From assembly GCF_900105885.1 (NCBI RefSeq), contig NZ_LT629780.1:1550001-1614000 (forward strand): DNA of 64,000 nucleotides. Reading direction: 5' to 3'. The position numbers and the translations under genes were made by a program. This DNA is from Pseudomonas guangdongensis. Its GTDB lineage: Bacteria; Pseudomonadota; Gammaproteobacteria; Pseudomonadales; Pseudomonadaceae. Numbering within the stretch: position 1 is the stretch's first letter; every line of letters begins with the position of its first letter. Shown here piece by piece: positions 16,205 to 55,719 of this stretch. Below the pieces are notes generated by a model. That model searched no databases and was not told where the DNA came from. It saw only the letters and a program-made list of their open reading frames with translations.

Positions 16205-16720
16205 TCAGCCGCGCTGCCCTGCCTGCGCGCGGTACAGCGCGGCGAAGCCGTGCAGCACGGGGATCGCCAGCGCCCAGAGCGCCGCGAGCAGCAGCAGGGT
16301 CGGCAGTGTGCCCAGCGGCAGGCCGACTCCGGCCAGGCGCGCGCCGGCCCAGTAGGACAGCGGCCCGGCCACGGCGCCGAGCAGGCTGCCCAGCCACCAG
16401 GGCCGCGCGGTCCAGGCCAGGCAGTGGTTGAGGGTGGTGGCCAGCAGCGCCCACAGCAGCGCCAGCCAGGCCGGCACCAGCGGACTGTCGCCGGGGAAGT
16501 CGAACACCCCCATCTGCAGCAGGAAACTGTCCAGCGCGCTGCCGGCGATCAAGACGCTGGCCACCAGCTTGCCTTCCTCGGCCCAGCGCCCGATCCAGCG
16601 GAAATGCACCAGCAGCGCCAGTACCGGCACGGCCAGCAGCCAGGGCTGCTGCGCGGCGAACACGCAGGCGAACCAGCCGGTCTGGAACAGCAGGGCGTTG
16701 AGCAGCAGCTTGCGGTTCAT
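16205..16720 (-). CDS. DUF2878 family membrane protein
   Basis: 171 residues from the ATG at 16720 (MNRKLLLNALLFQTGWFACV). About five or six transmembrane helices; DUF2878 pattern with LLNALLFQTGWF and the internal DSFLLQMGVFDF. Function unknown. It follows the Cfa-like gene by 141 nt on the same strand and is often found with this lipid/FAD cluster, so it is probably its last member. Its stop is 2 nt from the convergent pagL stop. Confidence 0.8.
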   Translation of the reverse strand: MNRKLLLNALLFQTGWFACVFAAQQPWLLAVPVLALLVHFRWIGRWAEEGKLVASVLIAGSALDSFLLQMGVFDFPGDSPLVPAWLALLWALLATTLNHCLAWTARPWWLGSLLGAVAGPLSYWAGARLAGVGLPLGTLPTLLLLAALWALAIPVLHGFAALYRAQAGQRG

Positions 16721-16861
16721 GGTGTCGACCTTGCGAAGGGGCGCGGCATTGTCAGCGCCGCGCGGGTTCGGAGCCAGCCGTGCAGGGCGGCAAGGGGAAT
16801 GCCTGCGGCATGCGGTGGGTCGCGCCGCAGGCGGCCGAGCCACCCTGCACAGGATCCAGGT

Positions 16862-18151
16862 TCAGGCGTTGCGTTGCAGCGGGCCGAGCAGCGGTGCCGG
16901 CCGCGCATCCGGGCGGGCCAGCAGCATCTGCACGGTGCCGATGGTCCGTTCGAGGAAGCCGCCCTCGCAGTAGCACAGGTAGAACTCCCAGAGCCGGAAG
17001 AAGGCGTCGTCGTAGCCGCGCTGCTCCAGCTCGACGCGGGCGTGGCGCAGGTTGTCGTGCCAGTGGCGCAGGGTGCGCGCGTAGTGGGCGCCGAAGTCCT
17101 CCAGGTGCAGCAGGTTCATGTCGGTGCCGGTGCTGAGGGTCTTGAGCATCGCCTCGATCGACGGTAGCGCGCCGCCGGGGAAGATGTAGCGCTGGATGAA
17201 ATCGACGCTGTTGCAGGCCTGGCGGTAGCGCTGGTCGCGGATGGTGATGGCCTGCAGCAGCATCAGCCCCTCGGGCTTGAGCAGGCGCATGCACTGCTGG
17301 AAGTACTCGGGCAGGTAGCGGTGGCCGACCGCCTCGATCATCTCGATGGACACCAGCTTGTCGTACTGGCCCTTGAGGTCGCGGTAGTCCTGCAGCAGCA
17401 GGGTGACGCGGTTTTCCAGGCCCATCTCGACGATGCGCCGGGCGGTGTAGTCGTGCTGTTCGCGCGACAGGGTGGTGGTGGTCACCCGGCAGCCGTAGTG
17501 GCTGGCGGCGTACAGCGCCATGCTGCCCCAGCCGGTGCCGATCTCCAGCAGGTGGTCGGAGGGCTGCAGGTCGAGCTTCTGGCAGATGCGCTCCAGCTTG
17601 TTGAGCTGGGCGCGCTCCAGGGTGTCGTCCGGGGACAGGAACATCGCCGCCGAGTACATCATGGTCGGGTCGAGGAAGGCCTCGAACAGGTCGTTGCCCA
17701 GATCGTAGTGGGCGGCGATGTTGCGCCGCGAGCCCGCCCTGGAGTTGCGGTTGACCGCGTGCAGGGCGCGCAGGAAGGGGCGGCCGAGCAGCGCCAGGCC
17801 GCCCTCCAGGTCGTCGAGCACCTCGAGGTTGGCGACGAACACGCGGATCACCGCAGTCAGGTCCGGGCTGCTCCAGTGGCCGTGGATGTAGGCCTCGCCG
17901 GCGCCGACCGAGCCGTTGCTGGCGACCAGCCTCCAGGCGGCCGGATCGTGGATGTGGATCTCGCCGTGCAGCTCGGCGTGCGGGTCGCCGAAGCTCTGGC
18001 AGTCGTCGCCCTCGACCAGCAGCAGGCGGCCGCGGCGCAACTGGCCGAGCTGGCGCAGCACGGCGCGGCGCAGCAGGGTCGCGGCCAGGCCGAGCTTGCC
18101 GAGGCCGGCGAACAGGCGGGTACGGGAGGCGGTCAGGCTAGAGCTTTTCAT
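16862..18151 (-). CDS. Cyclopropane-fatty-acid-synthase-like SAM methyltransferase, possible furan-fatty-acid methyltransferase
   Basis: 429 residues. N-terminal lipid-binding part, then HYDLGNDLFEAFLD, SAM site LLEIGTGWGSMALYAA, and VSIEMIEAVGHRYLPEYFQQC. In classical Cfa the loop after HYDLGND reads YSCAYF with an important Cys (C139 in E. coli); here it is YSAAMF, so that Cys is Ala. The gene overlaps DUF1365 by 14 nt in an operon with a flavin oxidoreductase, SDR and photolyase. This neighbourhood fits the light or singlet-oxygen induced lipid genes (UfaM-like) better than housekeeping Cfa. Substrate is inferred, not shown. Confidence 0.85.
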   Translation of the reverse strand: MKSSSLTASRTRLFAGLGKLGLAATLLRRAVLRQLGQLRRGRLLLVEGDDCQSFGDPHAELHGEIHIHDPAAWRLVASNGSVGAGEAYIHGHWSSPDLTAVIRVFVANLEVLDDLEGGLALLGRPFLRALHAVNRNSRAGSRRNIAAHYDLGNDLFEAFLDPTMMYSAAMFLSPDDTLERAQLNKLERICQKLDLQPSDHLLEIGTGWGSMALYAASHYGCRVTTTTLSREQHDYTARRIVEMGLENRVTLLLQDYRDLKGQYDKLVSIEMIEAVGHRYLPEYFQQCMRLLKPEGLMLLQAITIRDQRYRQACNSVDFIQRYIFPGGALPSIEAMLKTLSTGTDMNLLHLEDFGAHYARTLRHWHDNLRHARVELEQRGYDDAFFRLWEFYLCYCEGGFLERTIGTVQMLLARPDARPAPLLGPLQRNA

Positions 18152-18935
18152 CGCAGGACTCCTGGAGCCGGTGGGCGACGCGGGAGTGGCCGTCGGCCGC
18201 CCGGTGGGAGAAGAATGGCACGCGCTTGAGCGCCAGGCGCAGCGCCTGCCAGTAGATGCCCAGCACGGTCTTGGCGGTCATCCACGGGAAGGCGCGCAGG
18301 TGGCGATGCACGGCGGCGCGGTCGAGGGTCTGGCGCTGCAGCGTCAGGGTGGCGTCGAACAGCTTGCCCTCGACGTCGTGGTCTTCCATGTGCACGCCCA
18401 GGCGTTCGCCGGGGCGGCTGAAGTGCAGGTGGTATTCCAGATCGCGCGGCAGGAACGGCGAGACGTGGAACGACTTGGCCACGGCGAAGTGCTGGCTGCC
18501 GGCGCCGTCCGCCGGCAGCACATAGTGGTAGCGCTGGTGCCAGGGGGTGTTGCTGACTTCGCAGAGGATCGCCGCCAGGCGCTCCTCGGCATCGAAGCAG
18601 TAGAAGAAGCTCACCGGGTTGAAGCTCAGCCCCCAGCAGCGCGGCTGGGTGAGCAGGCAGATGCGCCCTTCGGGCGCGGCGCCCAGCGCCTCGGCAAGGC
18701 ACCGGCGCACGGCCTCGGCGAGCGGCAGGCCCTGGCCGGTGAGGTGCGGCAGGTAGTCCTGCTCGCGGAACGACAGCGGCGCGAAGCGCCCGCGGCCGAG
18801 CAGCGGCGACAGCGCGAACAGCGCGTCCTGCTCGGCCAGGTCCAGGTACAGCAGGCCGATCCGGTAGCGGAACTCGTGGGCCTTCGGGCGCAGCCGGCGG
18901 TGGCGCACCCAGCCGCTGTAGAAGGCGCTGTTCAC
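18138..18935 (-). CDS. DUF1365 domain protein
   Basis: 265 residues from the GTG at 18933-18935, which overlaps the stop of the FAD gene (GTGA). DUF1365 hallmarks: SAFYSGWVRHRRLRPKAHEFRYRI, FNPVSFFYCFD, VSNTPWHQRYHY, HVSPFLPRDLEYHLHF. Biochemical role unknown; almost always co-encoded with the flavin oxidoreductase and Cfa-like protein as here, so it probably acts on the same fatty-acyl substrate. Confidence 0.9.
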   Translation of the reverse strand: MNSAFYSGWVRHRRLRPKAHEFRYRIGLLYLDLAEQDALFALSPLLGRGRFAPLSFREQDYLPHLTGQGLPLAEAVRRCLAEALGAAPEGRICLLTQPRCWGLSFNPVSFFYCFDAEERLAAILCEVSNTPWHQRYHYVLPADGAGSQHFAVAKSFHVSPFLPRDLEYHLHFSRPGERLGVHMEDHDVEGKLFDATLTLQRQTLDRAAVHRHLRAFPWMTAKTVLGIYWQALRLALKRVPFFSHRAADGHSRVAHRLQESCDEKL

Positions 18936-20179
18936 AGCGCCTCCCCGAACTCGGCGGCCACGCGCAGGGCGCTGACCACGCCGTCCTCGTGGAAGCCGTT
19001 GGCCCAGTAGGCGCCGCAGTAGTAGCTGTGCCGGGCGCCGAGCAGTTCGCGCCAGCGCGCCTGGGCGGCGATGCCGGTCAGGCTGTACTGCGGGTGGGCG
19101 TAGCGGAAGCGGCCGAGCACCTGCGCCGGGTCCACCGCGTCGTTCTGGTTGAGGCTGACGCAGAAGGTCCGCGAGGCGTCGATGCCCTGGAGGATGTTCA
19201 TGTCGTAGGTGACCGCCGCCAGACGGTCGCCCGGCGCGCCGAGGCGGTAGTTCCAGCTCGCCCAGGCCAGCCGGCGCTGCGGCAGCAGGCGGGTGTCGGT
19301 GTGCAGCAGCACGTCGTTGTCGGCATAGGGCAGGGCACCGAGGATCTCGCGCTCGGCCGCACTCGGCTCGGCGAGCAGGGCCAGCGCCTGGTCGCTGTGG
19401 CAGGCGAAGACAATCTTGTCGAAGCGCTCGCGGCCCGCGGCGCTGTGCACCGTCACCCCGCCTTCGTCGCGCTCGACACGCTGTACCGGGCAGTTGAGGC
19501 GGATGGCCTCGGCGAAGGGCTCGGTGAGCGGCGCGATGTAGCTGCGCGAGCCGCCCTTGACCACCCGCCACTGCGGGCGGTCGTTGACCGACAGCAGGCC
19601 GTGGTTCTTGAAGAAGCGCACGAAGAATTCCAGCGGGAAGGCCAGCATGCCCTCCAGCGACATCGACCAGATCGCCGAGCCCATCGGCACGATGTAGTGG
19701 TCGATGAAGCGCCGGCCGTAGCCGCGGCTGGCGAGGTAGTCGCCGAGGGTCATGCCGGCCGGCAGGCGGCCGCTGGCCAGCTCGGCCAGCGCCTCGCGGT
19801 TGAAGCGCAGGATGTCGCGCAGCATGCCCCAGAAGGCCGGCGACAGCAGGTTGCGGCGCTGGGCGAACAGGCTGTTGAGGTTGTTGCCGTTGTACTCGAT
19901 GCCGCTGGCCGGGTCGTGCACCGAGAAGCTCATCTCGGTGGGCTGCGAGGCGACGCCGAGACGCTCCAGCAGGCGGATGAAGTTCGGGTAGGTCCAGTCG
20001 TTGAACACGATGAACCCGGTGTCGATGGCGTGGTCGCGGCCGTCCACCGTCACGTCGACGGTGTGGGTGTGGCCGCCGATCCAGTCGCCGGCCTCGAACA
20101 CGGTCAGTTGGTGCTGGCGAGCGAGCAGGTGGGCGGCGGTCAGGCCGGCGATGCCGGTGCCGACGATGGCGATTCTCAT
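18932..20179 (-). CDS. FAD/NAD(P)-binding amine-oxidase-like flavoprotein (COG2907 type)
   Basis: 415 residues. N-terminal dinucleotide site IAIVGTGIAGLTAAHLLA, then the GG-doublet-like IGGHTHTVD and DTGFIVFNDWTYPNF of the COG2907 group; C-terminal FAD contact YCGAYWANGFHEDGVVSAL. Probably oxidises or desaturates a membrane fatty acyl chain with the Cfa-like enzyme. Start and stop overlap the neighbouring SDR and DUF1365 genes (ATGA/GTGA), implying translational coupling. Confidence 0.9.
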   Translation of the reverse strand: MRIAIVGTGIAGLTAAHLLARQHQLTVFEAGDWIGGHTHTVDVTVDGRDHAIDTGFIVFNDWTYPNFIRLLERLGVASQPTEMSFSVHDPASGIEYNGNNLNSLFAQRRNLLSPAFWGMLRDILRFNREALAELASGRLPAGMTLGDYLASRGYGRRFIDHYIVPMGSAIWSMSLEGMLAFPLEFFVRFFKNHGLLSVNDRPQWRVVKGGSRSYIAPLTEPFAEAIRLNCPVQRVERDEGGVTVHSAAGRERFDKIVFACHSDQALALLAEPSAAEREILGALPYADNDVLLHTDTRLLPQRRLAWASWNYRLGAPGDRLAAVTYDMNILQGIDASRTFCVSLNQNDAVDPAQVLGRFRYAHPQYSLTGIAAQARWRELLGARHSYYCGAYWANGFHEDGVVSALRVAAEFGEAL

Positions 20180-20961
20180 CGGGTGTCATCCTTGGAAGGG
20201 TTACGGCTCATGCGTTGGGTCACCGCCAGGCGCAGACGGCCGGGCAGGTGGGCGAGCAGCAGGAGCAGGGCGATGAACGGGCGCGGGAAGGCGATTTCCA
20301 GCGCGCGGCGGTCGAGGCCGTCGGCGATGCGGCGGGCGGCCTTGTCGGCCGGCCAGCGCATCGGCATGGCGAAGTCGTTGCGGCGGGTCAGCGGGGTGTC
20401 GACGAAGCCGGGGCTGATCACGCTGACCGCGATGCCCTCGGCGGCCAGATCGACGCGCAGCGATTCCAGCAGGTAGCGCAGCGCCGCCTTGGAGGCGCCG
20501 TAGGCCTCGGCGCGCGGCAGGGCGAGGAAGGTCGCCGCGCTGGCCACCCCGGCCAGCAGCGGCTGATCGCCCTTGCGCAGCAGCGGCAGCGCCGCCTCGA
20601 CGCAGTGCGCGGCGGAGAACAGGTTGGCGCTGACCACCCGCTCGACCATCGCCGCCTCGAAGGCGCGCACCTCGACGTATTCGCAGGTGCCGGCGTTGAG
20701 GATCGCCACATCCAGCGCGCCCCATTCGGCGTCGATCCGCGCGGCGATGGCGGCCACCGCGTCCGGCTCGGTGAGATCGCCGGGGACCACCAGCACCTGC
20801 TGCGGCCAGCGCGCGGCCAGCGCGTCCAGCGGTTCGCGGCGCCGGGCGCTGAGGGCCAGGCGGTGGCCGCGAGCGAGCAGCTCCTCGGCCAGGGCGGCGC
20901 CGATGCCGCTGCTGGCGCCGGTGAGCCAGATGCGTTTGCCTGTATGGGTCGTGGTGTTCAT
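20176..20961 (-). CDS. Short-chain dehydrogenase/reductase
   Basis: 261 residues from the ATG at 20961. NAD(P) site LTGASSGIGAALAEEL, NAG motif (AILNAGTCEY), catalytic YGASK preceded by Ser (VASAATF), and a hydrophobic C-terminal segment (FIALLLLLAHLPGRLRL) suggesting membrane association. Overlaps its neighbours on both sides. Redox partner in the lipid-modifying operon; substrate unknown. Confidence 0.9.
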   Translation of the reverse strand: MNTTTHTGKRIWLTGASSGIGAALAEELLARGHRLALSARRREPLDALAARWPQQVLVVPGDLTEPDAVAAIAARIDAEWGALDVAILNAGTCEYVEVRAFEAAMVERVVSANLFSAAHCVEAALPLLRKGDQPLLAGVASAATFLALPRAEAYGASKAALRYLLESLRVDLAAEGIAVSVISPGFVDTPLTRRNDFAMPMRWPADKAARRIADGLDRRALEIAFPRPFIALLLLLAHLPGRLRLAVTQRMSRNPSKDDTR

Positions 20962-21395
20962 GCCAGCCTCCTCTTCAGCCAGGCGATGACCCGGCCGAGT
21001 ACCGGCAGGTGCTCGTAGAGCAGCGCGCCGGCGTCGAAATAGTCGCGGTGGCGATAGACCCGGCCGTCGCTCCACAACAGGTGCGAGCAGCCGGCCACCC
21101 GGATCGGCCGCCCGCCGGCCAGGCGCGGGTGGCGGTAGCTCATGGTCCAGCGCAGGTAGCCTTCGCCCTCCTTGTCGCCCTCGCGCACCGCGTCGAAGCC
21201 GTGGAAGTCGAAACGCAGCTCCTGCACGTTGGCGTACAGCTCGGCAAAGTAGCGCTGCATCGCCGCCAGGCCGCGGATCTCGTGCAGCGGGTCGACGAAC
21301 AGCGCATCCGCGCTGTACAGCTCGCCGAGGCGGTCGAGGCTGTCCTTGTCGAGGGCGGCGAAGCGGCGGGCGAAGTCGCGGAGAAAGTCGCTCAT
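20958..21395 (-). CDS. SnoaL/NTF2-like small protein
   Basis: 145 residues with a SnoaL-like fold: LGELYSADALFVDPLHEIRGLAAMQRYF, LRFDFHGFDAV, and a C-terminal strand-rich part ending in a basic helix (RVIAWLKRRLA). Such domains form open hydrophobic cones and may be cyclases, isomerases or binding proteins. It begins 10 nt after phrB and overlaps the SDR by 4 nt. Confidence 0.82.
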   Translation of the reverse strand: MSDFLRDFARRFAALDKDSLDRLGELYSADALFVDPLHEIRGLAAMQRYFAELYANVQELRFDFHGFDAVREGDKEGEGYLRWTMSYRHPRLAGGRPIRVAGCSHLLWSDGRVYRHRDYFDAGALLYEHLPVLGRVIAWLKRRLA

Positions 21396-21405: not shown

Positions 21406-22842
21406 TCAGGCCGGGGTCTGGTCCAGTGCCTTGAACGCCGCCAGCGCCCGCTCGCGCGAGCGGGCCAGGTCGACGATCGGGCGCGGGTAATCGGGGGCGC
21501 CGAACAGCCCGCCGAGGGCCGCCGGGTTGTGGATGTCGCGCTTGTTCAGGCCGGCCAGCTCGGGCACCCACTGGCGGATGAAGGCGCCGTCCGGATCGAA
21601 CTTCTCCGACTGGGTCAGCGGGTTGAAGATGCGGAAGTAGGGCGCGGCGTCGGTGCCGGTGGAGGCGCTCCACTGCCAGCCGCCGTTGTTGGCGGCCAGA
21701 TCGCCGTCGATCAGGTTCTGCATGAACCAGCGCTCGCCGTGGCGCCAGTCGATCAAGAGGTTCTTGGTCAGGAACATGGCGACGATCATGCGCAGGCGGT
21801 TGTGCATCCAGCCGGTGGCCGAGAGCTGGCGCATCGCCGCATCGACGATGGGAATGCCGGTGTTGCCCTGCTGCCAGGCGGCGAGGTCGGCCGGCGCCTC
21901 GCGCCAGGCCAGCGCCTCGGTCTCGGTGCGGAAGGCGCGGCCCATCGACACCCGCGGGTAACCGACCAGGATGTGCTTGTAGAACTCGCGCCAGAGCATC
22001 TCGTTGATCCAGCTGACCACCCCGGGATTGCCGCTGGCGAACTCGCCGGCGTTGATCGCCAGCGCCGCGTGCAGGCACTGGCGCGGCGACAGCACGCCGG
22101 CGACCAGATAGGCCGACAGCCGGCTGGTGCCGGGCTGGGCGGGGAAGTCGCGCTGGCCGTCGTACCACTCCAGGTGCTGGTCGGCGAAGGCGCTCAGGCG
22201 CCGGTGCGCCGCCGCCTCGCCGGCCGGCCACAGCTGGCGCAGCGCGTCGCCCGGCGCAGCGAAGCCGTCGACGGCCGCCGGCACGGGATCGCTGGCGATG
22301 GCGCACGGCGGCTGGATCGCCGGCAGCGGTTGAAGCGTCGGCAGATGCGCGGCCAGCTCGGCGTAGCAGCGCTTGCGGAACTGGCTGAACACCTGGAAGT
22401 AGCCGCCGCTCTTGGTCAGCAGGCTGCCGGGCTGGAACAGGATCTGGTCTAGGTGGCTGTGCCAGGCGATCCCGGCGCCCTGCAGGGCGGCCTGTACCGC
22501 CTGGTCGCGGCGCTGTTCGTGGACGCCGTATTCGGCGTTGACGTGGACGCTGCGCACGCCGTGCTCGCGGCACAGCTCCAGCAGCACGCCGGGGGCGTCG
22601 TCCCAGTGTTCGGCATGGCGCAGCAGCAGCGGGATGTTCAGCGCGGCGAGGGTCTTGCCCAGTTCGGCGAGGTTGCGCAGCCAGAAGTCCACCTTGGCCG
22701 GCGCATCGTCGTGCGCGCGCCACTGGCCGGGGGAGATCAGCCAGAGCGCCAGCAGCGAGCCGTCGCCTTGCGCGGCGGCGCGAGCCAGGGCGGTGTTGTC
22801 GTGGGCGCGCAGGTCGTTGCGCAGCCAGACCAGTCGGGTCAT
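21406..22842 (-). CDS. phrB: Deoxyribodipyrimidine photolyase (class I CPD photolyase)
   Basis: 478 residues. N-terminal antenna domain LVWLRNDLRAHDNTAL; C-terminal FAD domain with TSRLSAYLVAGVLSPRQC, WREFYKHIL, GIPIVDAAMRQLSATGWMHNR and NNGGWQWSASTGTDAAPYFRIFNP, which retains FAD-contact and electron-transfer tryptophans. It repairs cyclobutane pyrimidine dimers with blue/near-UV light. It starts 10 nt after the LitR-like gene, so light-controlled expression with its regulator is likely. Its likely antenna (folate) connects to the pterin genes near 48 kb. Confidence 0.96.
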   Translation of the reverse strand: MTRLVWLRNDLRAHDNTALARAAAQGDGSLLALWLISPGQWRAHDDAPAKVDFWLRNLAELGKTLAALNIPLLLRHAEHWDDAPGVLLELCREHGVRSVHVNAEYGVHEQRRDQAVQAALQGAGIAWHSHLDQILFQPGSLLTKSGGYFQVFSQFRKRCYAELAAHLPTLQPLPAIQPPCAIASDPVPAAVDGFAAPGDALRQLWPAGEAAAHRRLSAFADQHLEWYDGQRDFPAQPGTSRLSAYLVAGVLSPRQCLHAALAINAGEFASGNPGVVSWINEMLWREFYKHILVGYPRVSMGRAFRTETEALAWREAPADLAAWQQGNTGIPIVDAAMRQLSATGWMHNRLRMIVAMFLTKNLLIDWRHGERWFMQNLIDGDLAANNGGWQWSASTGTDAAPYFRIFNPLTQSEKFDPDGAFIRQWVPELAGLNKRDIHNPAALGGLFGAPDYPRPIVDLARSRERALAAFKALDQTPA

Positions 22843-22852: not shown

Positions 22853-23800
22853 TCAGGGAGCGGCGAGCAGCCCGCGCTGCTGCAGGAAGTGGTGGGCGTC
22901 GAGGGGCGAGTCGGCCAGCGTCAGGTGTTCGAAGGCGGCCAGTTCGTCGCGGTGGATCTGCACCGCCGGGCCGGCCAGCAGCAGCGGCACCGCGCAGGCG
23001 GCGTGCAGGCGCGGCAGCTGACGGCGCAACTGGGTGGCCTCCAGCGCCTGGCTGGAATACAGCAGCAGGGCGCGCGGCCGGACGCGCTCGACGGCGAGGT
23101 TCAGTTCGCCGGTCGGCAGGGTCCAGTCGAGCACCTCGACCGCGCACTGGCTGTCGCTGAGCAGCCAGGCGCACAGCCACAGGCCAGGCTCCATCGGCAG
23201 TTCGGAGAGGTTGGCGAGCAGCACCGGCGCGCCCTGTTGCTGGCGGTTGTTGTGGTAGACCCGCGCGCCGAGCTTGCTGCGCAGCCAGGAGCGGAAGAAC
23301 ACCCGCTCCAGGGCGGCGCCGAACTGGCCCTGCCAGCGCTGCTCCAGCTCGTCGAGCAGCGGCAGCAGCAGGTGGCGGCACAGGGTCTGCGGCGGGTAGA
23401 GGGCCAGGGCGCGGTTGTAGGCATCGTCCAGCGGCCGCTCGGCGAGGCCGGCGACGGCCTCCAGCAGTTCGCCGCGCAGCTGCTCCCAGGGGCCGTCGGC
23501 GCTACCGGCCGGCGGGCTGTCGTGGTCGAGCAGGGCGCGGATCTGGCCGACCGCTACGCCGCGGTTGAGCCAGGTGAGGATCGCCTGCACGCGCTCGACG
23601 TGGGCCTGGCCATAGAGGCGATGGCCCTTGGCGGTGCGCTGCGGGACGATCAGTCCGTAGCGGCGCTCCCAGGCGCGCAGGGTCACCGGGTTGACCCCGG
23701 TGCGGCGGGCCACCTCGCGGATCGGCAGCCAGCCTTCGGCGCGTTCCTCGGCGCTGAGCGGGGCGTCGTCGGCGGCGAGCAGTGGGGCGTCGTCGTGCAT
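22853..23800 (-). CDS. LitR/CarH-family MerR regulator, copy 1 (class II type, no cobalamin motif)
   Basis: 315 residues from the ATG at 23800, with GGAGA 8 nt upstream. The MerR helix-turn-helix (about 25-95) reads LPIREVARRTGVNPVTLRAW, ERRYGLIVPQRT, GHRLY. The C-terminal half follows the B12-dependent photoreceptor fold (helical bundle, then a Rossmann-like part), but the W-x9-E-H cap becomes W...ER (ALERVFFRSWLRSKL) and the ExHxxG cobalamin ligand is missing (SELPMEPGLWL). This is what I recall of class II LitR/PplR of P. putida, which relies on a LOV protein for light. It sits between the YbgA-like gene and phrB and probably represses its own operon through the TGTACA pairs at 24870-24944. 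Confidence 0.9.
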   Translation of the reverse strand: MHDDAPLLAADDAPLSAEERAEGWLPIREVARRTGVNPVTLRAWERRYGLIVPQRTAKGHRLYGQAHVERVQAILTWLNRGVAVGQIRALLDHDSPPAGSADGPWEQLRGELLEAVAGLAERPLDDAYNRALALYPPQTLCRHLLLPLLDELEQRWQGQFGAALERVFFRSWLRSKLGARVYHNNRQQQGAPVLLANLSELPMEPGLWLCAWLLSDSQCAVEVLDWTLPTGELNLAVERVRPRALLLYSSQALEATQLRRQLPRLHAACAVPLLLAGPAVQIHRDELAAFEHLTLADSPLDAHHFLQQRGLLAAP

Positions 23801-24808: not shown

Positions 24809-24874
24809 GTACAGGCTGCAGATCAGGCCTGCGGGGGAGGACACGCCTGAGGAGGTGGCTACTGCAGCCTGTAC
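24809..24874 (-). promoter_or_regulatory. Leader hairpin: 13-bp perfect inverted repeat ahead of the photolyase operon
   Basis: GTACAGGCTGCAG (24809-24821) and CTGCAGCCTGTAC (24862-24874) are perfect complements; the loop contains a second TCAGGC/GCCTGA pairing. In the minus-strand RNA the 3' arm is followed by CUUUUAUCC, so it could attenuate transcription or mask the start. The upstream arm shares TGTAC with the operator at 24870-24893, so DNA cruciform or operator roles are also possible. Confidence 0.6.
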
Positions 24875-24893
24875 AGGAAACGGTTTCTGTACA
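24870..24893. promoter_or_regulatory. LitR-type operator O1 (TGTACA-N12-TGTACA)
   Basis: Two exact TGTACA half-sites with 12 nt between, the centre itself nearly symmetric (GGAAAC/GGTTTC). It lies roughly +5 to +28 from the predicted minus-strand start site of the photolyase operon, a position suited to repression. Confidence 0.8.
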
Positions 24894-47803: not shown

Positions 47804-48373
47804 TTACTTGCTCCGTCCGATCAGCTGGAGGAATTCCTGGCGGGTGTTCACCGACTCGCGGAACGCGCCGAGCATCACCGAGGTGTTCATCACCGAGTTC
47901 TGCTTCTCCACCCCGCGCATCATCATGCACATGTGCTTGGCCTCGATCACCACGGCCACGCCGGCGGCGTCGGTGACGCTCTGGATCGCCTCGGCGATCT
48001 GCCGGGTGAGGTTCTCCTGGATCTGCAGGCGGCGGGCGAACATGTCGACGATGCGCGCCACCTTGGATAGGCCGAGCACCTTGCCGGTGGGGATGTAGGC
48101 GACGTGGGCCTTGCCGATGAACGGCAGCAGGTGGTGCTCGCACAGCGAGTACAGCTCGATGTTGCGGACGATCACCATCTCGTCGTTGTCGGAGGCGAAC
48201 AGCGCGCCGTTGACGATCTCGTCCAGCGACTGCTCATAGCCGCGGCACAGGTACTGCATGGCCTTGGCGGCGCGCTTGGGCGTGTCGAGCAGGCCTTCGC
48301 GCTCGGGGTTCTCGCCGAGGCCGACCAGGATCTCGCGGTAGTTGTGGGTGATTTGCGACAGTTGATCGCTCAT
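47804..48373 (-). CDS. folE: GTP cyclohydrolase I
   Basis: 189 residues from the ATG at 48373. Zn ligands: [12 protein letters not shown] and HMCMMMRG; typical [20 protein letters not shown] and [13 protein letters not shown]. Makes dihydroneopterin triphosphate from GTP. Second gene of folM-folE-folX, 20 nt after folM. Light-induced folE in P. putida, as I recall it, fits the TGTACA operators upstream. Confidence 0.96.
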
Positions 48374-48393: not shown

Positions 48394-49104
48394 TCACCGG
48401 ACGTGACGGCCGCCGTTGACGCACAGGCTGGTGCCGGTGACGTAGGGGTTGTCCAGCAGGTAGCGCAGGCTCTGGTAGACGACGTCCGGGCCCGGCTCGA
48501 TACCCAGGACCGACTTGGCCAGGGTCTTCTCGCGGTAGGCGACGTCGTCGTGGTCGTGGAACATCACCAGCGCCGGGGCGATGGCGTTGACCTTGATATG
48601 CGGCGCGAACTGCGCGGCGAACGACAGGGTCATGTTCTCCAGTCCGGCCTTGCTCGCGCAATAGGCGACGCGGTTGGCGCTGCCGCGGCGCACCACATCG
48701 TCGGTGATGTGCACGATGTCGGCCGGCGCCGAGCGCTCCAGCAGTTCGCGGCAGTGCAGGTTGATCAGGTAGGGGGCCAGCATGTGCACGCTGACCATCC
48801 GGGTGAAGGCCTCGGCCTCGCGGCCCGGCTCCTCGCGCAGCCAGTCCGAGGCGTTGTGGACGATGGCGCGCAGGCGCTCGGTGTGCTGCTTGAGGCGTCC
48901 GACGAAGTCGAGGATGCCCGCCTCGCCGGAGAAGTCGGCGGCCAGGGTCAGCGCGCCGCGCTCGCGCAGCTCGTCGAGCGCCGGGCGCTCGGTGCGGTAG
49001 CTGACGATCAGCGGCTGGCCGTCGTCGAGCAAGCGCCGGGCGCAGTGCAACCCGACCCGCTGGCTGGCGCCGGTAATCAGGATGGGGGCGGGGGACTGGC
49101 TCAT
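48394..49104 (-). CDS. folM: Dihydromonapterin reductase (SDR)
   Basis: 236 residues. NADPH motif [18 protein letters not shown] with the TGASxRxG of pteridine reductases, NAS (IVHNASDW), and [13 protein letters not shown]. Reduces dihydromonapterin to tetrahydromonapterin, the cofactor of phenylalanine hydroxylase in Pseudomonas. First gene of the pterin operon. Confidence 0.92.
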
Positions 49105-49198: not shown

Positions 49199-49222
49199 TA
49201 TACCAGAGATAACTTTTGTACA
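49199..49222. promoter_or_regulatory. LitR-type operator O4 upstream of folM (TATACC-N12-TGTACA)
   Basis: Half-sites 49199-49204 (TATACC, one mismatch to the T(G/A)TACA form) and 49217-49222 (exact TGTACA), spaced 12 nt. It lies 95 nt from the folM start; on the minus strand TTGTAC and TATAAC sit within it as possible promoter hexamers. Confidence 0.65.
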
Positions 49223-49376: not shown

Positions 49377-49811
49377 TCAGGGTTTCTCGTCGCGGCGTGG
49401 CGGCAGGGCGCAGCCGTCCTGCCGGCAGCGCGCCGCGCCGTCCGGGTGCGGCAGCCAGTCCAGGTGCGGGCGCAGGCGGCAGAACAGCCGGTAGACCGGC
49501 TCCAGCGCGCGGCGCAGCCCGCACCAGCGCAGCAGCAGGGCCAGGCGTTCGAGGCCGGCGGCGCGCCAGCTCCAGTAGGTGGCGTCCAGGCCGCTGACCC
49601 AGCGTCCGTCGGCGAAGCGCGCATGCAGGCGCGCCTGCAGCGTGGCCCGGTCCGGCTCGCCGGCGGCGCTGGCGAAGTCGGGGGCGGCGATATCGACCAG
49701 CTGCAGACGCTGCGGCGAAGCGCGGCGGCGCAGCGCGACGATCTCGCGGGCGCACAGCGGGCAGTCGCCGTCGTAGTAGAGGGTCAGGGGCCAGGCAGGA
49801 TGCTCGGACAT
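49377..49811 (-). CDS. DUF393 (DCC-type thiol oxidoreductase-like) protein
   Basis: 144 residues from the ATG at 49811. N-terminal LTLYYDGDCPLCAREIVALRRR carries the DGxCxxC of this family; QLVDIAAPDF, SGLDATYWSWRAAGLERL follow. Function unknown, presumed thiol redox. Divergent from the second LitR-like gene, and upstream of folM on the same strand. Confidence 0.88.
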   Translation of the reverse strand: MSEHPAWPLTLYYDGDCPLCAREIVALRRRASPQRLQLVDIAAPDFASAAGEPDRATLQARLHARFADGRWVSGLDATYWSWRAAGLERLALLLRWCGLRRALEPVYRLFCRLRPHLDWLPHPDGAARCRQDGCALPPRRDEKP

Positions 49812-49823: not shown

Positions 49824-49840
49824 TGTACAGGGTTTGTACG
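49824..49840. promoter_or_regulatory. TGTACA-N5-TGTACG site O6 between DUF393 and the second LitR-like gene
   Basis: Half-sites 49824-49829 and 49835-49840 are 11 nt apart start to start (one helical turn), unlike the N12 pairs. It ends 13 nt from the DUF393 start on the minus side and lies about 65 nt upstream of the regulator on the plus side. CarH-type regulators bind 11-bp direct repeats, so the spacing is plausible. Confidence 0.55.
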
Positions 49841-49902: not shown

Positions 49903-50868
49903 ATGTCCGAATTTCCCCTTGCTGCGCCCGGTGCGCCCCAGCCCTCCCGGCAGGACGAGCTGTATCCGATTCGTGAGGTTTCCCGCCTGACCGGCGTCAA
50001 TCCGGTCACCCTGCGAGCCTGGGAGCGACGCTACGGGCTGATCCAGCCGACCCGCACCGACAGCGGCCACCGGCTCTACTCGCTGGCCGACATCGAGGCG
50101 GTGCGCAGCATCCTGGCCTGGATCGAGCGCGGCGTGGCGGTCAGCAAGGTCGGCAAGATACTCGCGCGCAGCGCCGCCCCGGAGCCGCCCCGCGAGGCGC
50201 GCGAGACGCCGGCCTACGCCGATATCGCCGCCGGCGAATGGGGCGAGTGGCAGGCGCGCCTGCGCGCGGCGGTGGCGGCCTTCGACGACGGGCAGCTGGA
50301 GCGCCTGTACGGCCAAGTGTTCTCCACCTATCCGCTGGCGGTGGCCTTCCAGGATGTGCTGCTGCCGGTCTGGCAGGCCCTGCTGCTGCGCCAGGACGGT
50401 TTCGGCCAGACCAGCGAGTGGCTGTTCCTCGACAGCTTCCTGCGCGCGCGGGTGCTGCAGCGCCTGCTGCTGTGCCGCGGCCAGGGCGAGGCGCGGGTGC
50501 TGCTGGCGCCGCTGCCCGGTCACCGCCACGAGTTGGAGCTGCTGGTCTGTGGCCTGTTGCTGGCCGGCAGCGACCTGGCGGTCACCCCGCTGGGCCTCGG
50601 GCAGCCGTTCGACGAGCTGCCACTGATCTGCGAGAAGCGCCAGCCGCAGGCGCTGGTGCTGTTCTCCCACTGCCCGCCCGACGCCGAGTTGGGCCGCCAG
50701 CTCGGCCGGCTGAGTCTGGCGGTGGACTGCCCGCTGGCGCTGGCCGGCGAAGTCGCCGAGCTGGCCGGCGAAGGGCTGAGCGGCACGCCGGTGGCGAGCC
50801 TGGGCAGCGACGGGCAGCTGATGCCGCGCCGCCTGCGCCAGCTGCTGGCCGGACGTCTGGATACCTGA
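49903..50868 (+). CDS. LitR/CarH-family MerR regulator, copy 2 (class II type, no full cobalamin motif)
   Basis: 321 residues. HTH: LYPIREVSRLTGVNPVTLRAW, ERRYGLIQPTRT, GHRLYSL, nearly the same recognition region as copy 1. C-terminal photoreceptor-like half: the cap His is Trp (SEWLFLDSFLRARVL) and the lower-ligand motif ExHxxG is HRHELE, keeping His but losing Glu and Gly. So cobalamin binding is doubtful but less clearly lost than in copy 1. The near-identical HTH suggests both copies recognise TGTACA-type sites. Flanked on both sides by N5-spaced sites. Confidence 0.9.
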   Translation: MSEFPLAAPGAPQPSRQDELYPIREVSRLTGVNPVTLRAWERRYGLIQPTRTDSGHRLYSLADIEAVRSILAWIERGVAVSKVGKILARSAAPEPPREARETPAYADIAAGEWGEWQARLRAAVAAFDDGQLERLYGQVFSTYPLAVAFQDVLLPVWQALLLRQDGFGQTSEWLFLDSFLRARVLQRLLLCRGQGEARVLLAPLPGHRHELELLVCGLLLAGSDLAVTPLGLGQPFDELPLICEKRQPQALVLFSHCPPDAELGRQLGRLSLAVDCPLALAGEVAELAGEGLSGTPVASLGSDGQLMPRRLRQLLAGRLDT

Positions 50869-50930: not shown

Positions 50931-50947
50931 TGTACAAAAGCTGTACA
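50931..50947. promoter_or_regulatory. TGTACA-N5-TGTACA site O7 downstream of the second LitR-like gene
   Basis: Exact half-sites 50931-50936 and 50942-50947, 11 nt apart start to start, 63 nt after the regulator's stop. No protein-coding gene follows for 450 nt on the plus strand, but a strong terminator lies 60 nt downstream. Confidence 0.6.
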
Positions 50948-50949
50948 TG

Positions 50950-51051
50950 ATTGCTGCGGCGTATAGCGAACCCTCTCCTCGCATCCGCCGAACCACCCCC
51001 TGCGCACTCCGGCAGCCGCCTCCCCTGAACCTTTGGCTGCCGGATTTTTTT
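50950..51051 (+). ncRNA. Candidate short light-regulated RNA
   Basis: Between site O7 and the terminator at 51008-51051 lies about 100 nt without a credible ORF. It carries C-rich segments able to pair with Shine-Dalgarno sequences: CCCTCTCCTC (50971-50980), ACCACCCCC, and CCTCCCCTG in the terminator loop. It could equally be the 3' UTR of the litR-like gene. The promoter is not clear-cut, so this is a hypothesis. Confidence 0.3.
51008..51051 (+). terminator. Rho-independent terminator
   Basis: TCCGGCAGCC (51008-51017) and GGCTGCCGGA (51035-51044) form a perfect 10-bp stem with a 17-nt loop followed by seven T. Ends either the regulator transcript or the candidate small RNA. Confidence 0.88.
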
Positions 51052-51403: not shown

Positions 51404-53110
51404 GTGGAATGGTTTAAACGACAGAAAATCGGCACCAAGCTGATCTGCGGTTTTATGCTGGTCGCGCTGATCGGTGCATTCATCGGCCTGCAGGGCATCC
51501 TCAAGGCGGCGCAGATGAACGAGCTGGCCACGCGGATGTATGAGCGCGAAGCCACCGGCATCCGCCACTCGGCGGAGTCGAACATCCAGTTCATGGCCGC
51601 CAACCGGGCGATCCGTAACGCCATCCTGGCCACCTCCAGCGCGGATCGGCAGCGTTTCCTCGCCGATCTGGACGAACGCCTGGCGCGGATGCAGCGCGAA
51701 ATGGACCTGGCCGATGAAACCTTCTACTCCGACGCCGGCAAGGCGCTGGTGGCCGAGACCTACAAGGCGCAGGAAGAATATCGGCGTGTCGTCGCCGAGA
51801 TCGTCCAGCGCCTGCAGCAGGAAGAGGTCAGTGCCCAGCGCGACTCGGTCGACTACCTGTTCCGCGTGGCGCGGCCCATCGCCGAGGAAGCCGACAACCT
51901 GATGAGCCAGCTGGTCGAGTTCAAGGCCAATAACGCGGCTCGCGCGGCCGAGCAGACCCAGTCCATCTATTCCGGCATCCGCCTGCTGCTGATCAGCCTG
52001 ACCCTGGCCGGCGTGCTGGTCGGCGTGCTGATCGGCGTGCTCCTCACCCGCAGCCTGACCCGCCAGCTCGGCGGCGAGCCGGCCGAGGTGGCCGACCTGG
52101 CCAGCCGCATCGCCGCCGGCGACCTGACCGGCCGCCTCGACGCCGCGCAGGCCCGGCCGGGCAGCGTGATGTATGCGATGAACCAGATGCAGGCCGCGCT
52201 GAGCCGGGTGGTCGGTTCGGTGCGCGCCAGCAGCGACAGCATCGCCACAGGTTCCGCGCAGATCGCCTCCGGCAACGCCGACCTGTCCTCGCGCACCGAG
52301 CAGCAGGCCGCCTCCCTGGAGGAGACCGCGGCGAGCATGGAGGAGCTGACCTCCACGGTGAAGCAGAACGCCGACAACGCCCGCCAGGCCAGCGCGCTGG
52401 CCAACGACGCCTCGGCGACCGCCGACCATGGCCGCGAGGTGGTGCACCAGGTGGTCGACACCATGCAGGGCATCAACGACAGCTCGCAGCGCATCGCCAA
52501 CATCATCAACGTGATCGACTCGATCGCCTTCCAGACCAACATCCTCGCCCTCAACGCCTCGGTGGAGGCGGCGCGCGCCGGCGAGCAGGGCCGCGGCTTC
52601 ACCGTGGTGGCCAGCGAGGTGCGCAACCTGGCCAGCCGCAGCGCCGAGGCGGCGCGCGAGATCAAGACCCTGATCGAGGAGTCCGGGCGCCGCGTGCAGG
52701 ACGGCACCAAGCTGGTCGAGCAGGCCGGCAAGACCATGGGCGATGTGGTCGGTGCGGTACGCCGGGTCACCGACATCATCGACGAGATCTCCGCCGCTTC
52801 CCAGGAGCAGAGCGAGGGCATCGGCCAGGTCAACACCGCCGTAGCGCAGATGGACCAGGTGACCCAGCAGAACGCCAGCCTGGTGCAGGAAGCCTCGGCC
52901 GCCTCGGCCTCGCTGGCCGAGCAGGCGCAGAAGCTGCAGGAAGCGGTGGCAGTGTTCCGTCTCAGCGACAGCCAGCCGACGCGTCCCGCGAGCGCGCCGC
53001 GCACTGTCGCCAGTCGCCCGCAGGCAGCGGCGGCCGCTGCCGCTCCAGCCCCGCGCCCGGCTCCTGCCCGCACAGCCAGCGTCGACGAGGGGGAGTGGGA
53101 AACCTTCTGA
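51404..53110 (+). CDS. Methyl-accepting chemotaxis protein (4HB type), tandem copy 1
   Basis: 568 residues from a GTG with AAGGAG upstream. TM1 about 12-31 ([21 protein letters not shown]), four-helix-bundle ligand domain about 35-185, TM2 about 190-212, HAMP ([23 protein letters not shown]), signalling hairpin with the tip [26 protein letters not shown], and a C-terminal EWETF, the xWxxF pentapeptide that tethers CheR/CheB. Ligand unknown. From TM2 onward nearly identical to the second copy. Confidence 0.95.
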
Positions 53111-53327: not shown

Positions 53328-53484
53328 CATATGATGCCGGGCTTTCCGTGCCCGGAAATATGCAGTCGCTATTTCCGCAGTGCCGGGCATCGTCGTGCAG
53401 CGATTATTCCGTCGTGGATATATGCGGAATCCTGTGCGGCGAGACGTTGTGTCATTGATGTGTCTTTGTGCGGGAGTGCGCGTA

Positions 53485-55170
53485 GTGAAATGGTTTGAGC
53501 GACAAAAAATCGGCATCAAGCTTATTTGCAGTTTTCTGCTGGTTTCTTTTGTCGGTGCGGTGATCGGTATTCTCGGTATCGCCAAGACGGCGCAGATGAA
53601 CGATCTGGCGACCCGGATGTACGAGGACGAGGCCGTGGGTCTGCGGCATGTCGCCGAGGTCAAGATCCAGTTCATGGCGGCGAACCAGGCGATCCGCAAC
53701 GCCCTGCTGGCCGGCAGCGATGGCGAGCGGGAGCTGGCGCTGGTCGACCTGCGCGAGCGCAGCGACAAGGCCAAGGCGGCGCTGATGCAGGCCCGGCGGG
53801 TCTTCGTGACTGAGCGGGGGCGCGCCGATGCCGACGAGGCCCAACAGGCGCTGCAGGCTTTCGACGTGGTCGCGAACGAGGTGGTGCGCCGTCTGCGCGA
53901 GGACGATCCCGAGCGCGTGCAGAACGCCACCTACTATCTGGTCAGCGAAGGACGCCCGGCGGCCGATCATGCCGACACGCTGCTCGGCGGCATGATCGAG
54001 GCGAAGATGGCCAACACCGTGCGCATCGCCGAGCAGACCGAGAGCATCTATCTGGCCAACCGCCTGCTGCTGATCGTCCTGACCCTGGCCGGCGTGCTGG
54101 CCGGCGCGCTGATCGGCGTGCTCCTCACCCGCAACCTGACCCGCCAGCTCGGCGGCGAGCCGGTCGAGGTGGCCGACCTGGCCAGCCGCATCGCCGCCGG
54201 TGACCTGACCGGGCGCCTCGACGCCGCGCAGGCCCGGCCGGGCAGCGTGATGTATGCGATGAGCCAGATGCAGGCCGCGCTGAGCCGGGTGGTCGGTTCG
54301 GTGCGCGCCAGCAGCGACAGCATCGCCACCGGTTCCGCGCAGATCGCTTCCGGCAACGCCGACCTGTCCTCGCGCACCGAGCAGCAGGCCGCCTCCCTGG
54401 AGGAGACCGCGGCGAGCATGGAGGAGCTGACCTCCACGGTGAAGCAGAACGCCGACAACGCCCGCCAGGCCAGCGCGCTGGCCAACGACGCCTCCAGCAC
54501 CGCCGACCATGGCCGCGAGGTGGTGCACCAGGTGGTCGACACCATGCAGGGCATCAACGACAGCTCGCAGCGCATCGCCAGCATCATCAACGTGATCGAC
54601 TCGATCGCCTTCCAGACCAACATCCTCGCCCTGAACGCCTCGGTGGAAGCGGCGCGCGCCGGCGAGCAGGGCCGCGGCTTCACCGTGGTGGCCAGCGAGG
54701 TGCGCAACCTGGCCAGCCGCAGCGCCGAGGCGGCGCGCGAGATCAAGACCCTGATCGAGGAGTCCGGGCGCCGCGTGCAGGACGGCACCAAGCTGGTCGA
54801 GCAGGCCGGCAAGACCATGGGCGATGTGGTCGGCGCGGTACGCCGGGTCACCGACATCATCGACGAGATCTCCGCCGCTTCCCAGGAGCAGAGCGAGGGC
54901 ATCGGCCAGGTCAACACCGCCGTGGCACAGATGGACCAGGTGACCCAGCAGAACGCCAGCCTGGTGCAGGAAGCCTCCGCCGCCTCGGCCTCGCTGGCCG
55001 AGCAGGCGCAGAAGCTGCAGGAAGCGGTGGCGGTGTTCCGCCTCAGCGACAATCAGCCGACGCGTACCGCGAGCGCGCCGCGCCGTGTGCAGACTGCAGC
55101 CGCTGTCGCCGCGCAGCCGGTGCGTCCCGCCGCGGCGCATGTCGCGGAGCAGGAGTGGGAAACCTTCTGA
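53485..55170 (+). CDS. Methyl-accepting chemotaxis protein (4HB type), tandem copy 2
   Basis: 561 residues from the GTG at 53485, aligned to the first copy's start ([13 protein letters not shown] vs [13 protein letters not shown]); GGAG lies 9 nt upstream. Same domains as copy 1: TM1, four-helix bundle about 35-185 (clearly diverged), TM2, HAMP, signalling hairpin and C-terminal EWETF. Nucleotides 54062-55083 match 51981-53002 at a constant offset of 2081 with no indels. Divergent sensing domains on a nearly identical output domain imply different ligands and one signalling route. Confidence 0.94.
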
Positions 55171-55204
55171 GTGCTGCCCTGCGCCGGCGTCTCCGGCGCA
55201 TATG

Positions 55205-55236
55205 GCAAAACGCCCCGCAGTGTCGGGGCGTTTTGC
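55205..55236. terminator. Bidirectional rho-independent terminator
   Basis: GCAAAACGCCCCG (55205-55217) and CGGGGCGTTTTGC (55224-55236): a perfect stem with A/T runs at the base on both sides, between the convergent MCP and LOV genes. Confidence 0.88.
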
Positions 55237-55260
55237 GTTCGGCGCGGTGCGAGGCGGCCT

Positions 55261-55719
55261 TCAGCCCTGAGGCTTGGCCTTGAGCGCCGCCAGTTCGGCC
55301 TTGAGCGCGGCCAGCTCGGCTTCCAGCTCGACGACGCGCTGCTGCGCCTCGACCTGCTCGGTGACGTCCTTCTGGATGCCGATGTAGTAGGTCAGCTGGT
55401 CGGCCTCGTTGAACACCGGGGTGATCGACAGCTCGTTCCAGAACAGCGAACCGTCCTTGCGGTAGTTGCGGATCACCTGGCGGCACGGGCGATGCTCGTG
55501 GACCGCCTGACGGATCAGCTCCAGGCCGATCTGTTCGCGGTCGCCGGCCTGCAGGAAGCGGCAGTCCTGGTAGAGGATGTCGTCGGCGCCGTAGCCGGTC
55601 AGGCGCTCGAAGGCCGGATTGGCGTAGATGAGGATGTTGTCGTCGCCTTCCTGTTCGGCGACGACTATGCCGTCGTTGGAGGCGTCGACCACCAGTTGCA
55701 GCAGCTTGGCGTTGATCAT
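55261..55719 (-). CDS. Short LOV-domain blue-light receptor (PpSB-LOV type)
   Basis: 152 residues, one LOV domain (about 10-120) plus N-cap and C-terminal helix. The photoactive Cys is C53 in YQDCRFLQAGD (canonical NCRFLQ with N to D), the same position as in P. putida short LOV proteins. FMN contacts: IRNYRKDGSLFWNELSITPVFNEADQLTYYIGIQKDVT. The C-terminal helix ends in a heptad-like AELAALKAELAALKAK, suited to dimerisation. No output domain: it probably acts by binding a partner, and the LitR-like regulators in this window are the obvious candidates. Confidence 0.93.
   Translation of the reverse strand: MINAKLLQLVVDASNDGIVVAEQEGDDNILIYANPAFERLTGYGADDILYQDCRFLQAGDREQIGLELIRQAVHEHRPCRQVIRNYRKDGSLFWNELSITPVFNEADQLTYYIGIQKDVTEQVEAQQRVVELEAELAALKAELAALKAKPQG

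Follow-up and report, generated by a model that had tools for sequence, protein, structure and literature searches.

The DNA analyzed here, a stretch of 64,000 nucleotides from Pseudomonas guangdongensis (NZ_LT629780.1, positions 1,550,001 to 1,614,000) referred to below as the window, raises the question of whether a complete blue-light response is encoded in one place, and whether a short RNA belongs to it. The window likely encodes, in full, a blue-light regulon built on a short LOV and class II LitRs, like those of P. mendocina and P. putida, and a LitR-driven short RNA may be part of it. The core circuit is a further member of an already published system and not a new proposal. The conservation of an operator beside renalase and the RNA unit go beyond what was found in print.

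The genes named in an earlier note on this DNA (two class II-type LitRs, a short LOV, photolyase, a Cfa operon, renalase, and folM-folE-folX) were all confirmed with the expected Pfam/NCBIfam families, and all LOV/LitR parts lie within 40 kb, between the DUF2878 gene (16205, − strand) and the LOV start at 55719. A nine-gene operon, rudS-litR1-phrB-...-cfa-DUF2878, occupies the − strand. Its first gene is rudS (23815..24786; PF04463 and PF08349), a 2-thiouracil desulfurase fused to DUF1722 from the tRNA s4U desulfidase family, followed by litR1 (22853..23797; MerR HTH and B12-binding_2), similar to the class II LitRs PmlR1 and PplR1, and the DNA photolyase phrB (21406..22842; PF00875/PF03441). 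Then come genes for a SnoaL-like protein (20958..21395; PF12680), a short-chain dehydrogenase (20176..20961; PF00106), an FAD-dependent oxidoreductase (18932..20179; PF01593), a DUF1365 protein (18138..18935; PF07103), a Cfa/UfaM-like methyltransferase (16862..18151; CMAS, PF02353), and the ninth and final gene for the DUF2878 protein (16205..16723; PF11086). The gene ufaM is a member of the corresponding cluster of P. mendocina (PMC9758184). The fol genes are also on the − strand: folM (48394..49104; SDR family, assigned within the set folM, folE, folX), folE for GTP cyclohydrolase I (47804..48373; PF01227), and folX (47432..47803; Pfam FolB family, in agreement with the P. mendocina gene set).

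The second regulator gene, litR2 (49903..50868, + strand; Pfam MerR_1), encodes a PmlR2-like class II LitR with similarity to CarH (PDB 5c8d, E 2e-18). The short LOV gene (55261..55719, − strand) encodes a protein of 152 aa with the adduct cysteine Cys53 in DCRFLQ, PAS families only and no effector domain; its PDB matches, among them 7r5n and 3sw1, are chains titled "Sensory box protein". The adjacency of litR2 and LOV does not hold here, as two genes for 4HB-type methyl-accepting chemotaxis proteins (MCPs; 51404..53110 and 53440..55170, + strand, Pfam) stand between them. LitR1 matched MerR_1 and B12-binding_2, and LitR2 matched MerR_1 and MerR only (Pfam, E ≤ 0.001); the B12-binding domain was absent from both at the same threshold. 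LitR1 scored under the cut-offs of the NCBIfam CarH and MlrA models. Judged by domain content, both LitRs are predicted to be MerR HTH regulators without a cobalamin-binding domain.

The earlier note proposed to scan the genome for the operator T(G/A)TACA-N12-TGTACA. Exact matches were found at only four places in the 3.19 Mb genome, three of them inside the window (24870, 24921, and 26307) and the fourth at position 1823444 of contig C1, and the reversed control pattern had none. With up to two mismatches, the window contains 16 strand-matches at 8 places against 0.44 expected, a number reached in 0 of 100 shuffles; three of these places (11543, 21296, and 35496) carry two mismatches, and the eight are not all assumed to be meaningful. 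Two exact sites precede rudS. Site 1 (24921..24944), supported also by alignment, contains TTGACT in its spacer on the − strand, followed after 16 bases by TACTAT, while Site 2 (24870..24893) is kept in all six aligned genomes (G000, which is the genome studied, and G003-G007). The order of TTGACT within Site 1, 16 bases, the −10-like hexamer, and Site 2 is the arrangement published for P6650. The site before folM (49199..49222), TGTACA-N12-GGTATA on the − strand, has one mismatch on the better strand and lies 95 bp from the folM start; both the half-sites and the distance equal those reported for P. mendocina folM (PMC9758184). Putative operators stand at both the rudS/phrB operon and folM, as expected of a class II LitR/short LOV system. 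As a separate observation, the exact operator also precedes other MCP genes.

By homology, the light circuit proposed in the earlier note is well supported through the nine-gene and fol operons, the operators, and Cys53, but its mechanism had already been shown for P. mendocina PmlR2/PmSB-LOV, where illuminated LOV was demonstrated biochemically to free LitR from its operator (PMC9758184). In the dark, LitR bound to the operators would repress the renalase promoter together with the folM and rudS-litR1-phrB-...-cfa operons. Under blue light, a Cys53-FMN adduct would form in LOV, and the adduct-bearing LOV would bind the DNA-binding domain of LitR and release it, permitting expression of genes for DNA repair, tRNA s4U removal, membrane lipids, and pterins. 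The renalase step is suggested by operator conservation. Directly after litR2, the same switch may yield a short, terminator-ended transcript. This small RNA would measure perhaps 50-130 nt and carry, ahead of its terminator hairpin, an unpaired CUGCGCA that hardly varies; in some lineages, the element would instead close an acyl-CoA dehydrogenase (ACAD) mRNA at its 3′ end, under similar half-sites. For every gene of the genome studied, light control is a prediction, and LOV-LitR binding and derepression would be expected here by homology.

The third exact operator in the window (26307..26330) lies between the bacterial renalase gene (25272..26258, − strand; 531.6 bits to renalase in PDB 4zcc) and the genes for an NAD-dependent epimerase (26452..27357, + strand; Pfam Epimerase and DUF1731) and ferrochelatase, hemH (27367..28392, + strand; PF00762). 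Among relatives with this arrangement, the operator is present in 19 of 19 with LOV and in one of eight without it. It was also found in 26 of 30 named LOV genomes, chosen for spread from 80 LOV loci, against 0.18% in the shuffled control. In 34 of 45 sites, it starts 70-77 bp before the renalase start; only in G008 is it clearly closer to the epimerase (about 41 bp), and in the short region of G031 it is near both. A reading centered on hemH, in which light-induced ferrochelatase drains photosensitizing porphyrin, was demoted: in most cases, the spacing of the operator is constant relative to renalase and not to epimerase/hemH. Renalase is therefore a predicted member of the LitR regulon, with an operator that lies upstream and tracks the gene. 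Bacterial renalases are assigned the oxidation of NAD(P)H isomers.

As for the other extra members in the earlier note, the Trp-rich TIGR02450/DUF2389 protein (24993..25208, − strand; above the TIGR02450 cut-off) gains support by association: in G001, G002, G005, and G007, its gene has LOV on one side and an N12 site with one mismatch on the other. Epimerase-hemH shares the operator and is only a possible target. The gene for DUF393, a DCC1-like thiol-disulfide oxidoreductase (49377..49811, − strand; PF04134), shares with litR2 a weak element of two half-sites in the gap between them (49824..49840). This is a pair spaced 11 bp apart with one mismatch rather than one of the N12 type, and it may resemble CarH operators.

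The "possible RNA" of the earlier note is supported as a candidate by half-sites, covariation, and alternation with ACAD. It lies between litR2 and LOV on the + strand. LitR half-sites at 50931 and 50942 and a degenerate one at 50960 (50931..50965), kept in G003, G004, and G006, head the unit; they include the genome's only exact TRTACA-N5-TRTACA, and 50942-50965 has one mismatch to the N12 pattern on the better strand. The comparatively defined core (51000..51051) consists of unpaired CTGCGCA, a covarying hairpin, and a T-run. Eighteen genomes carry a unit in which two or more half-sites precede CTGCGC-hairpin-T-run, and in three of these genomes the unit lies apart from litR2. All 18 units lack ACAD (type A) and carry the half-sites immediately upstream. 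CTGCGCA is kept in 17 of these 18, a conservation that is in part an ascertainment effect, since a TGCGCA pattern served to find the first members, while in the preceding 25 bases single columns reach at most 0.51 bits; column scores are slightly too low because the row of G000, whose CTGCGCA is intact, was anchored one base off. Covariation was detected in six of the 12 hairpin pairs, with a score of 0.331 compared with 0.189 for shuffled alignments and no more than 0.099 for slid ones, and with no excess of further pair types (10 against 10.6 in shuffles). The span to the T-run is underestimated where the loop itself contains five T's, as in 8Z and composti.

A strict terminator search missed several members and was replaced by a regular expression and then by a covariance model, which gave a single match per genome in 21 of the 148 genomes of the family. 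At E ≤ 0.01, 13 of the 30 named genomes had no match to the element, and two more had weak matches only, which were dropped; the dropped matches L279-L282 had E 0.0056-0.01 and no operator or ACAD context. No match was found in the congeners G001, G002, G005, and G007 in a run with stricter filters, and many LOV/litR2 genomes are without the element. No conserved reading frame was found: six of the 18 units have no frame of at least eight codons, and the other frames are mutually unlike save in close relatives. A consensus scan of 50860-51400 called neither a sigma-70 promoter nor a terminator, the hairpin loop exceeding the scanner limit of 8. Rfam at the gathering threshold identified in the window only two tRNAs located elsewhere, and at a loose threshold three matches in 50860-51160, the best to isrG with 12.6 bits against a cut-off of 100, which were taken as chance.

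In all 15 ACAD-type loci examined, ACAD has half-sites on its upstream side and the element on its downstream side. None of the 17 tested type A genomes has the close ACAD ortholog, in a search from which loci L298-L327 were set aside. In 8Z, composti, and khazarica, species of the P. mendocina group, the unit stands beside an SDR gene with element and half-sites kept. From these sequence patterns, the chance that the unit is a light-inducible small RNA gene under LitR control appears about even. About as likely as not, LitR and LOV control a previously undescribed small RNA, CUGCGCA with its terminator hairpin, which would have started out as the 3′ end of a light-controlled mRNA for acyl-CoA dehydrogenase, or have turned into one, and would have stayed under the light operator in several lineages without the enzyme gene.

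The element could also be a mere terminator, either of litR2 or left over from ACAD, behind an operator that is vestigial or has nothing to do with it, and with no functional RNA, which we consider a serious alternative with somewhat less than an even chance. The hairpin is downstream of litR2 on the same strand, ACAD genomes have the same hairpin after the ACAD stop codon, and no promoter was called at the site in the window. However, CTGCGCA is unpaired and not required for termination, yet it is far better conserved than the 25 bases before it. Moreover, the unit of 8Z, composti, and khazarica is not beside litR2, and both upstream states at that SDR locus carry LitR half-sites.

Instead of an RNA gene, the operator before the terminator may mark an attenuated leader that serves whichever gene comes next downstream, here a chemoreceptor and in other genomes a chalcone-isomerase-like gene. 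In G000 and G003, the terminator is indeed followed by an MCP gene on the same strand, and in 8Z, composti, and khazarica by Chalcone_3 (tested in 8Z), but in G004, G006, G083, G090, G100, and G114 the next gene, among the query-set genes that were mapped, is LOV on the opposite strand. The downstream genes also vary among lineages, and this explanation is improbable. That the operator after litR2 serves the chemoreceptors was rejected, as a terminator intervenes and G004 and G006 have no chemoreceptor there. Least of all is it probable that the TGTACA pairs belong to another MerR regulator with a coincidental link to light: the LOV-lacking relatives G019, G020, G023, G025, and G028 retain the site before rudS, but these five also retain a LitR homolog, the renalase-side site follows LOV presence, and the operator sequence found here is also that of the PmlR2 footprint and of the PplR1 consensus (PMC9758184).

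If the small RNA gene is real, the LOV/LitR response gains a post-transcriptional arm, and a conserved unit of LitR half-sites and a very short RNA would be new. The pair of states, operator-enzyme-3′ element and operator-3′ element, would be a test case for mRNA 3′ ends becoming stand-alone small RNAs. Renalase and small RNA under one operator would extend the photolyase/lipid response to RNA-level control and NAD(P)H-isomer oxidation. Few short-LOV systems have a known partner, and this circuit is among them.

In P. putida KT2440, PplR1-3 and PpSB-LOV reportedly share an operator consensus and the targets phrB, ufaM, folE, and pplR1, with LOV involved in induction. This consensus and these targets resemble those described here, although KT2440, with three PplRs and two LOVs, differs from the genome studied (via PMC9758184 and PMC8508746). 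Renalase or other extra members may already be among the 19 light-induced genes of P. putida (Sumi et al. 2020, J Bacteriol).

The closest likeness is to P. mendocina NBRC 14162 PmlR2/PmSB-LOV (Maruyama et al. 2022, PMC9758184), described with a nine-gene operon, a fol operon, two LitRs, a short LOV with Cys53, TGTACA-N12-TGTACA operators with Site 1 over the −35, and the folM site TGTACA-N12-GGTATA. There, pmlR2 and LOV are called constitutive (1.4-1.5 and 0.9-1.1 fold), and the words "renalase", "hemH", "ferrochelatase", "small RNA", and "acyl-CoA" are absent from the main text. Compared with that system, all parts here lie within 40 kb, two chemoreceptor genes split litR2 and LOV, and a unit headed by half-sites follows litR2. 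The regulators belong to the same LitR/CarH family as Thermus CarH (PDB 5c8d), but no B12-binding domain was found here and photosensing is assigned to LOV. The TudS-DUF1722 fusion in a LitR-photolyase operon corresponds to RudS (PMC11417400), a report that calls class II LitR adenosyl-B12-dependent, in disagreement with PMC9758184 and with the domain content here. The candidate RNA resembles 3′-end-derived sRNAs, for which a terminator-containing mRNA 3′ end may act as sRNA (PMC9438474), whereas here the candidate unit is found in two settings, at the 3′ end of an mRNA and standing alone, with the same kind of light-responsive operator in both.

The gene list of the earlier note, in which sensor, regulators, and targets of a light response lie within 40 kb, is borne out by Pfam and NCBIfam. 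The window spans bases 1550001-1614000 of a genome that forms a single contig of 3.19 Mb. A nine-gene run on the minus strand (24786 to 16205) encodes RudS, LitR1, PhrB, a SnoaL-like protein, an SDR, an FAD oxidoreductase, DUF1365, a Cfa/UfaM-like methyltransferase, and DUF2878. The DUF2389 and renalase genes are located upstream on the same strand, and epimerase-hemH is divergent to them. About 20 kb beyond epimerase-hemH are folX-folE-folM, DUF393, litR2, two chemoreceptor genes, and the short LOV gene. The closest LOV among the best 80 loci listed is from Pseudomonas sagittaria (91%), and the renalase is close to the solved renalase 4zcc (531.6 bits). The clustering is not unusual, because the congeners G001, G002, G005, and G007 carry litR2, LOV, DUF2389, a one-mismatch N12 site, and litR1 in one contiguous block. 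Between litR2 and LOV, 4HB chemoreceptor genes number two in the window (51404-55170), one in G003, and none in G004 or G006. G001 has two litR2-like genes, on contigs C36 and C22 (loci L176 and L177), one adjoining LOV and the other the fol operon. A tandem tRNA pair with equal Rfam scores occupies 7001-7196 on the minus strand.

The operator T(G/A)TACA-N12-TGTACA is strongly over-represented in the window: 16 strand-matches fall at 8 places with up to two mismatches, against 0.44 expected. The exact operator occurs at four places in the genome, three of them inside the window, and the reversed pattern at none. In the rudS promoter (minus strand), TTGACT lies inside the Site 1 spacer, TACTAT follows it after 16 bases, and Site 2 comes next. 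Both sites are kept in all six aligned genomes (the window genome and G003-G007), which have a -35 of TTGACT or TTGACC and a variable -10 region. Five relatives (G019, G020, G023, G025, and G028) have no LOV protein at E ≤ 1e-35, yet retain litR homologs and a site before rudS; therefore, these genomes may use another light input or a different signal.

Half-sites 11 bp apart are present in the gap between DUF393 and litR2 (49824-49840) and are kept in G003, G004, and G006. This spacing presumably resembles the CarH direct repeats, and litR2 autoregulation would fit. Outside the window, an exact LitR-type site (contig C1, 1823444-1823467; L141 9445-9468) is located about 18 bp upstream of a chemoreceptor gene, which has no match at E ≤ 1e-80 in the seven congeners. 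Exact sites also precede another chemoreceptor gene in G005 and G007 (L188, L189), of the 4HB type as tested for G007. Light control of these chemotaxis receptors is possible. An identical 24-base TGTACA-N12-TGTACA word appears three times in one relative (G030, contig C1, 2734556, 2987529, and 4312771), perhaps as part of a repeated element.

The intergenic region between renalase and the divergent epimerase or hemH was scanned for pairs of half-sites (TGTACA, TATACA, or TGTATA) spaced 11-13 bases, allowing no more than one mismatch, in the best 30 of 41 relatives with a positive renalase match. The arrangement was found in 19 of 20 LOV-bearing relatives (all except L101), and all 19 have the site, 16 without mismatch. 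Among the relatives without LOV, 8/10 have the arrangement and only one of these eight (G025) the site. The association of LOV with the site gives a Fisher p of 9e-6 for relatives that are not independent, eight being of one genus; by genus it is 9/9 versus 1/7 (p 9e-4), under our own grouping with two genera on both sides. Of thirty named LOV genomes, hand-chosen from the best 80 LOV loci listed, 29 have the arrangement (not L256) and 26, including P. mendocina FFL34, have the site, 19 without mismatch; L247, L250, and L257 lack the site. Mononucleotide shuffles gave 0.18% (5600 shuffles). Despite varying intergenic length, 34 of 45 sites start 70-77 bp upstream of the renalase start, and the site is retained in G001 and G002, although the locus lies apart from the rudS operon in these two. 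Because of this mostly constant distance and this retention, renalase is the likelier target of the shared site, and hemH a possible one. Renalase is a well-supported additional predicted member of the regulon. Neither renalase nor ferrochelatase was found as a LitR target in the open-access literature, with the supplement of PMC9758184 and Sumi 2020 outside this scope, and the PMC9758184 main text, searched by word, mentions neither.

Downstream of litR2, the window genome, G003, G004, and G006 share TRTACA-N5-TRTACA with a third, sometimes degenerate, half-site 17-18 bases on (50931-50965 in the window). About 40 bases past the third half-site follows CTGCGCANNCCGGNAGCC, a hairpin, and a T-run (core 51000-51051, plus strand). 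The half-site pair is the only exact one in the genome, and the 18-base core of the element is unique at zero mismatches. In a covariance model from an alignment of 17 relatives, 6 of 12 hairpin pairs show both-sided changes. Covariation is 0.331, compared with 0.189 for shuffles and no more than 0.099 for slid positions; further pair types are no more numerous than in shuffles. The model found one copy each in 21 of 148 family genomes under stricter filters. The 30 named LOV genomes gave 15 strong copies and four weak ones, which were dropped; 13 lack any match at E ≤ 0.01, and 15 lack an accepted one. The conservation of TGCGCA is partly selected for, since the first members were gathered with this pattern; members found with the model (e.g., G100, G111, G114, and 8Z) did not have to contain it, though the model rewards it. 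A simple scan of the window's site called neither promoter nor terminator. The forward direction is supported at the locus L058, where TATAAT lies 16 bases past the CTGTAC belonging to the first half-site. No Rfam family matched above its cut-off, and no light- or LitR-controlled small RNA of Pseudomonas was among the matches listed from the open-access literature.

The element occurs in two settings. In type A (18 genomes, distinct to the extent that handles and coordinates show), only a short stretch separates half-sites and element, and the last strict half-site is about 50-130 bases from the T-run. CTGCGC is conserved in 18/18 and CTGCGCA in 17/18 units, and the 25 bases before carry at most 0.51 bits per column. 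Six of the 18 have no frame of at least 8 codons, and no common peptide was visible by eye among the frames of the others. In type B, the element follows an acyl-CoA dehydrogenase (ACAD) gene, past its stop codon, with half-sites within about 110 bp upstream of ACAD in all 15 loci examined; this count leaves out the model-positive G066, G077, and G167 (stretch too short) and covers G172, whose coordinates G136 shares. A close ACAD ortholog (84-100% identity) was found in eight of 45 genomes searched, all type B; the other 37, including 17 of type A (one apparently listed twice), have relatives of at most 58% among the matches listed.

The element could be a spent terminator, either of litR2 or left over from ACAD, and this is a real possibility, though we lean away from it. 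The type A unit of P. sp. 8Z, P. composti, and P. khazarica is flanked by an SDR gene and a chalcone-isomerase-like gene, and the 11 kb examined around it contain neither litR2 nor LOV. At the same chromosomal place in 8Z and P. mendocina FFL34, homology resumes 8 bases before CTGCGCA, and the upstream part is exchanged, SDR and its neighbour versus ACAD. LitR half-sites are upstream in both states, which is hard to explain by a spent terminator. A small RNA under a LitR/light-type operator has, on these comparisons, about an even chance of being correct, and the candidate is worth a bench test.

Nine genes of these families are induced by light as a single unit in P. mendocina NBRC 14162, and the same fol genes make up another such unit (PMC9758184). 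The PmlR2 footprint there covers two TGTACA-N12-TGTACA sites, of which Site 1 overlies the -35 and Site 2 precedes the start codon; PmlR2 is taken off DNA by illuminated PmSB-LOV (PMC9758184). Induction was 26.7-33.2-fold for phrB, 25.0-33.2 for ufaM, 5.7-10.1 for pmlR1, 2.4-2.5 for folM, and 0.9-1.1 for LOV (PMC9758184). The nine gene families and the fol gene set are common to both species, and the half-sites and distance of the window's folM site equal those published. The P. putida regulon given in the earlier note likewise agrees with the published accounts examined. The circuit was correctly spotted and its core is already known; renalase and the candidate RNA would be the parts beyond it.
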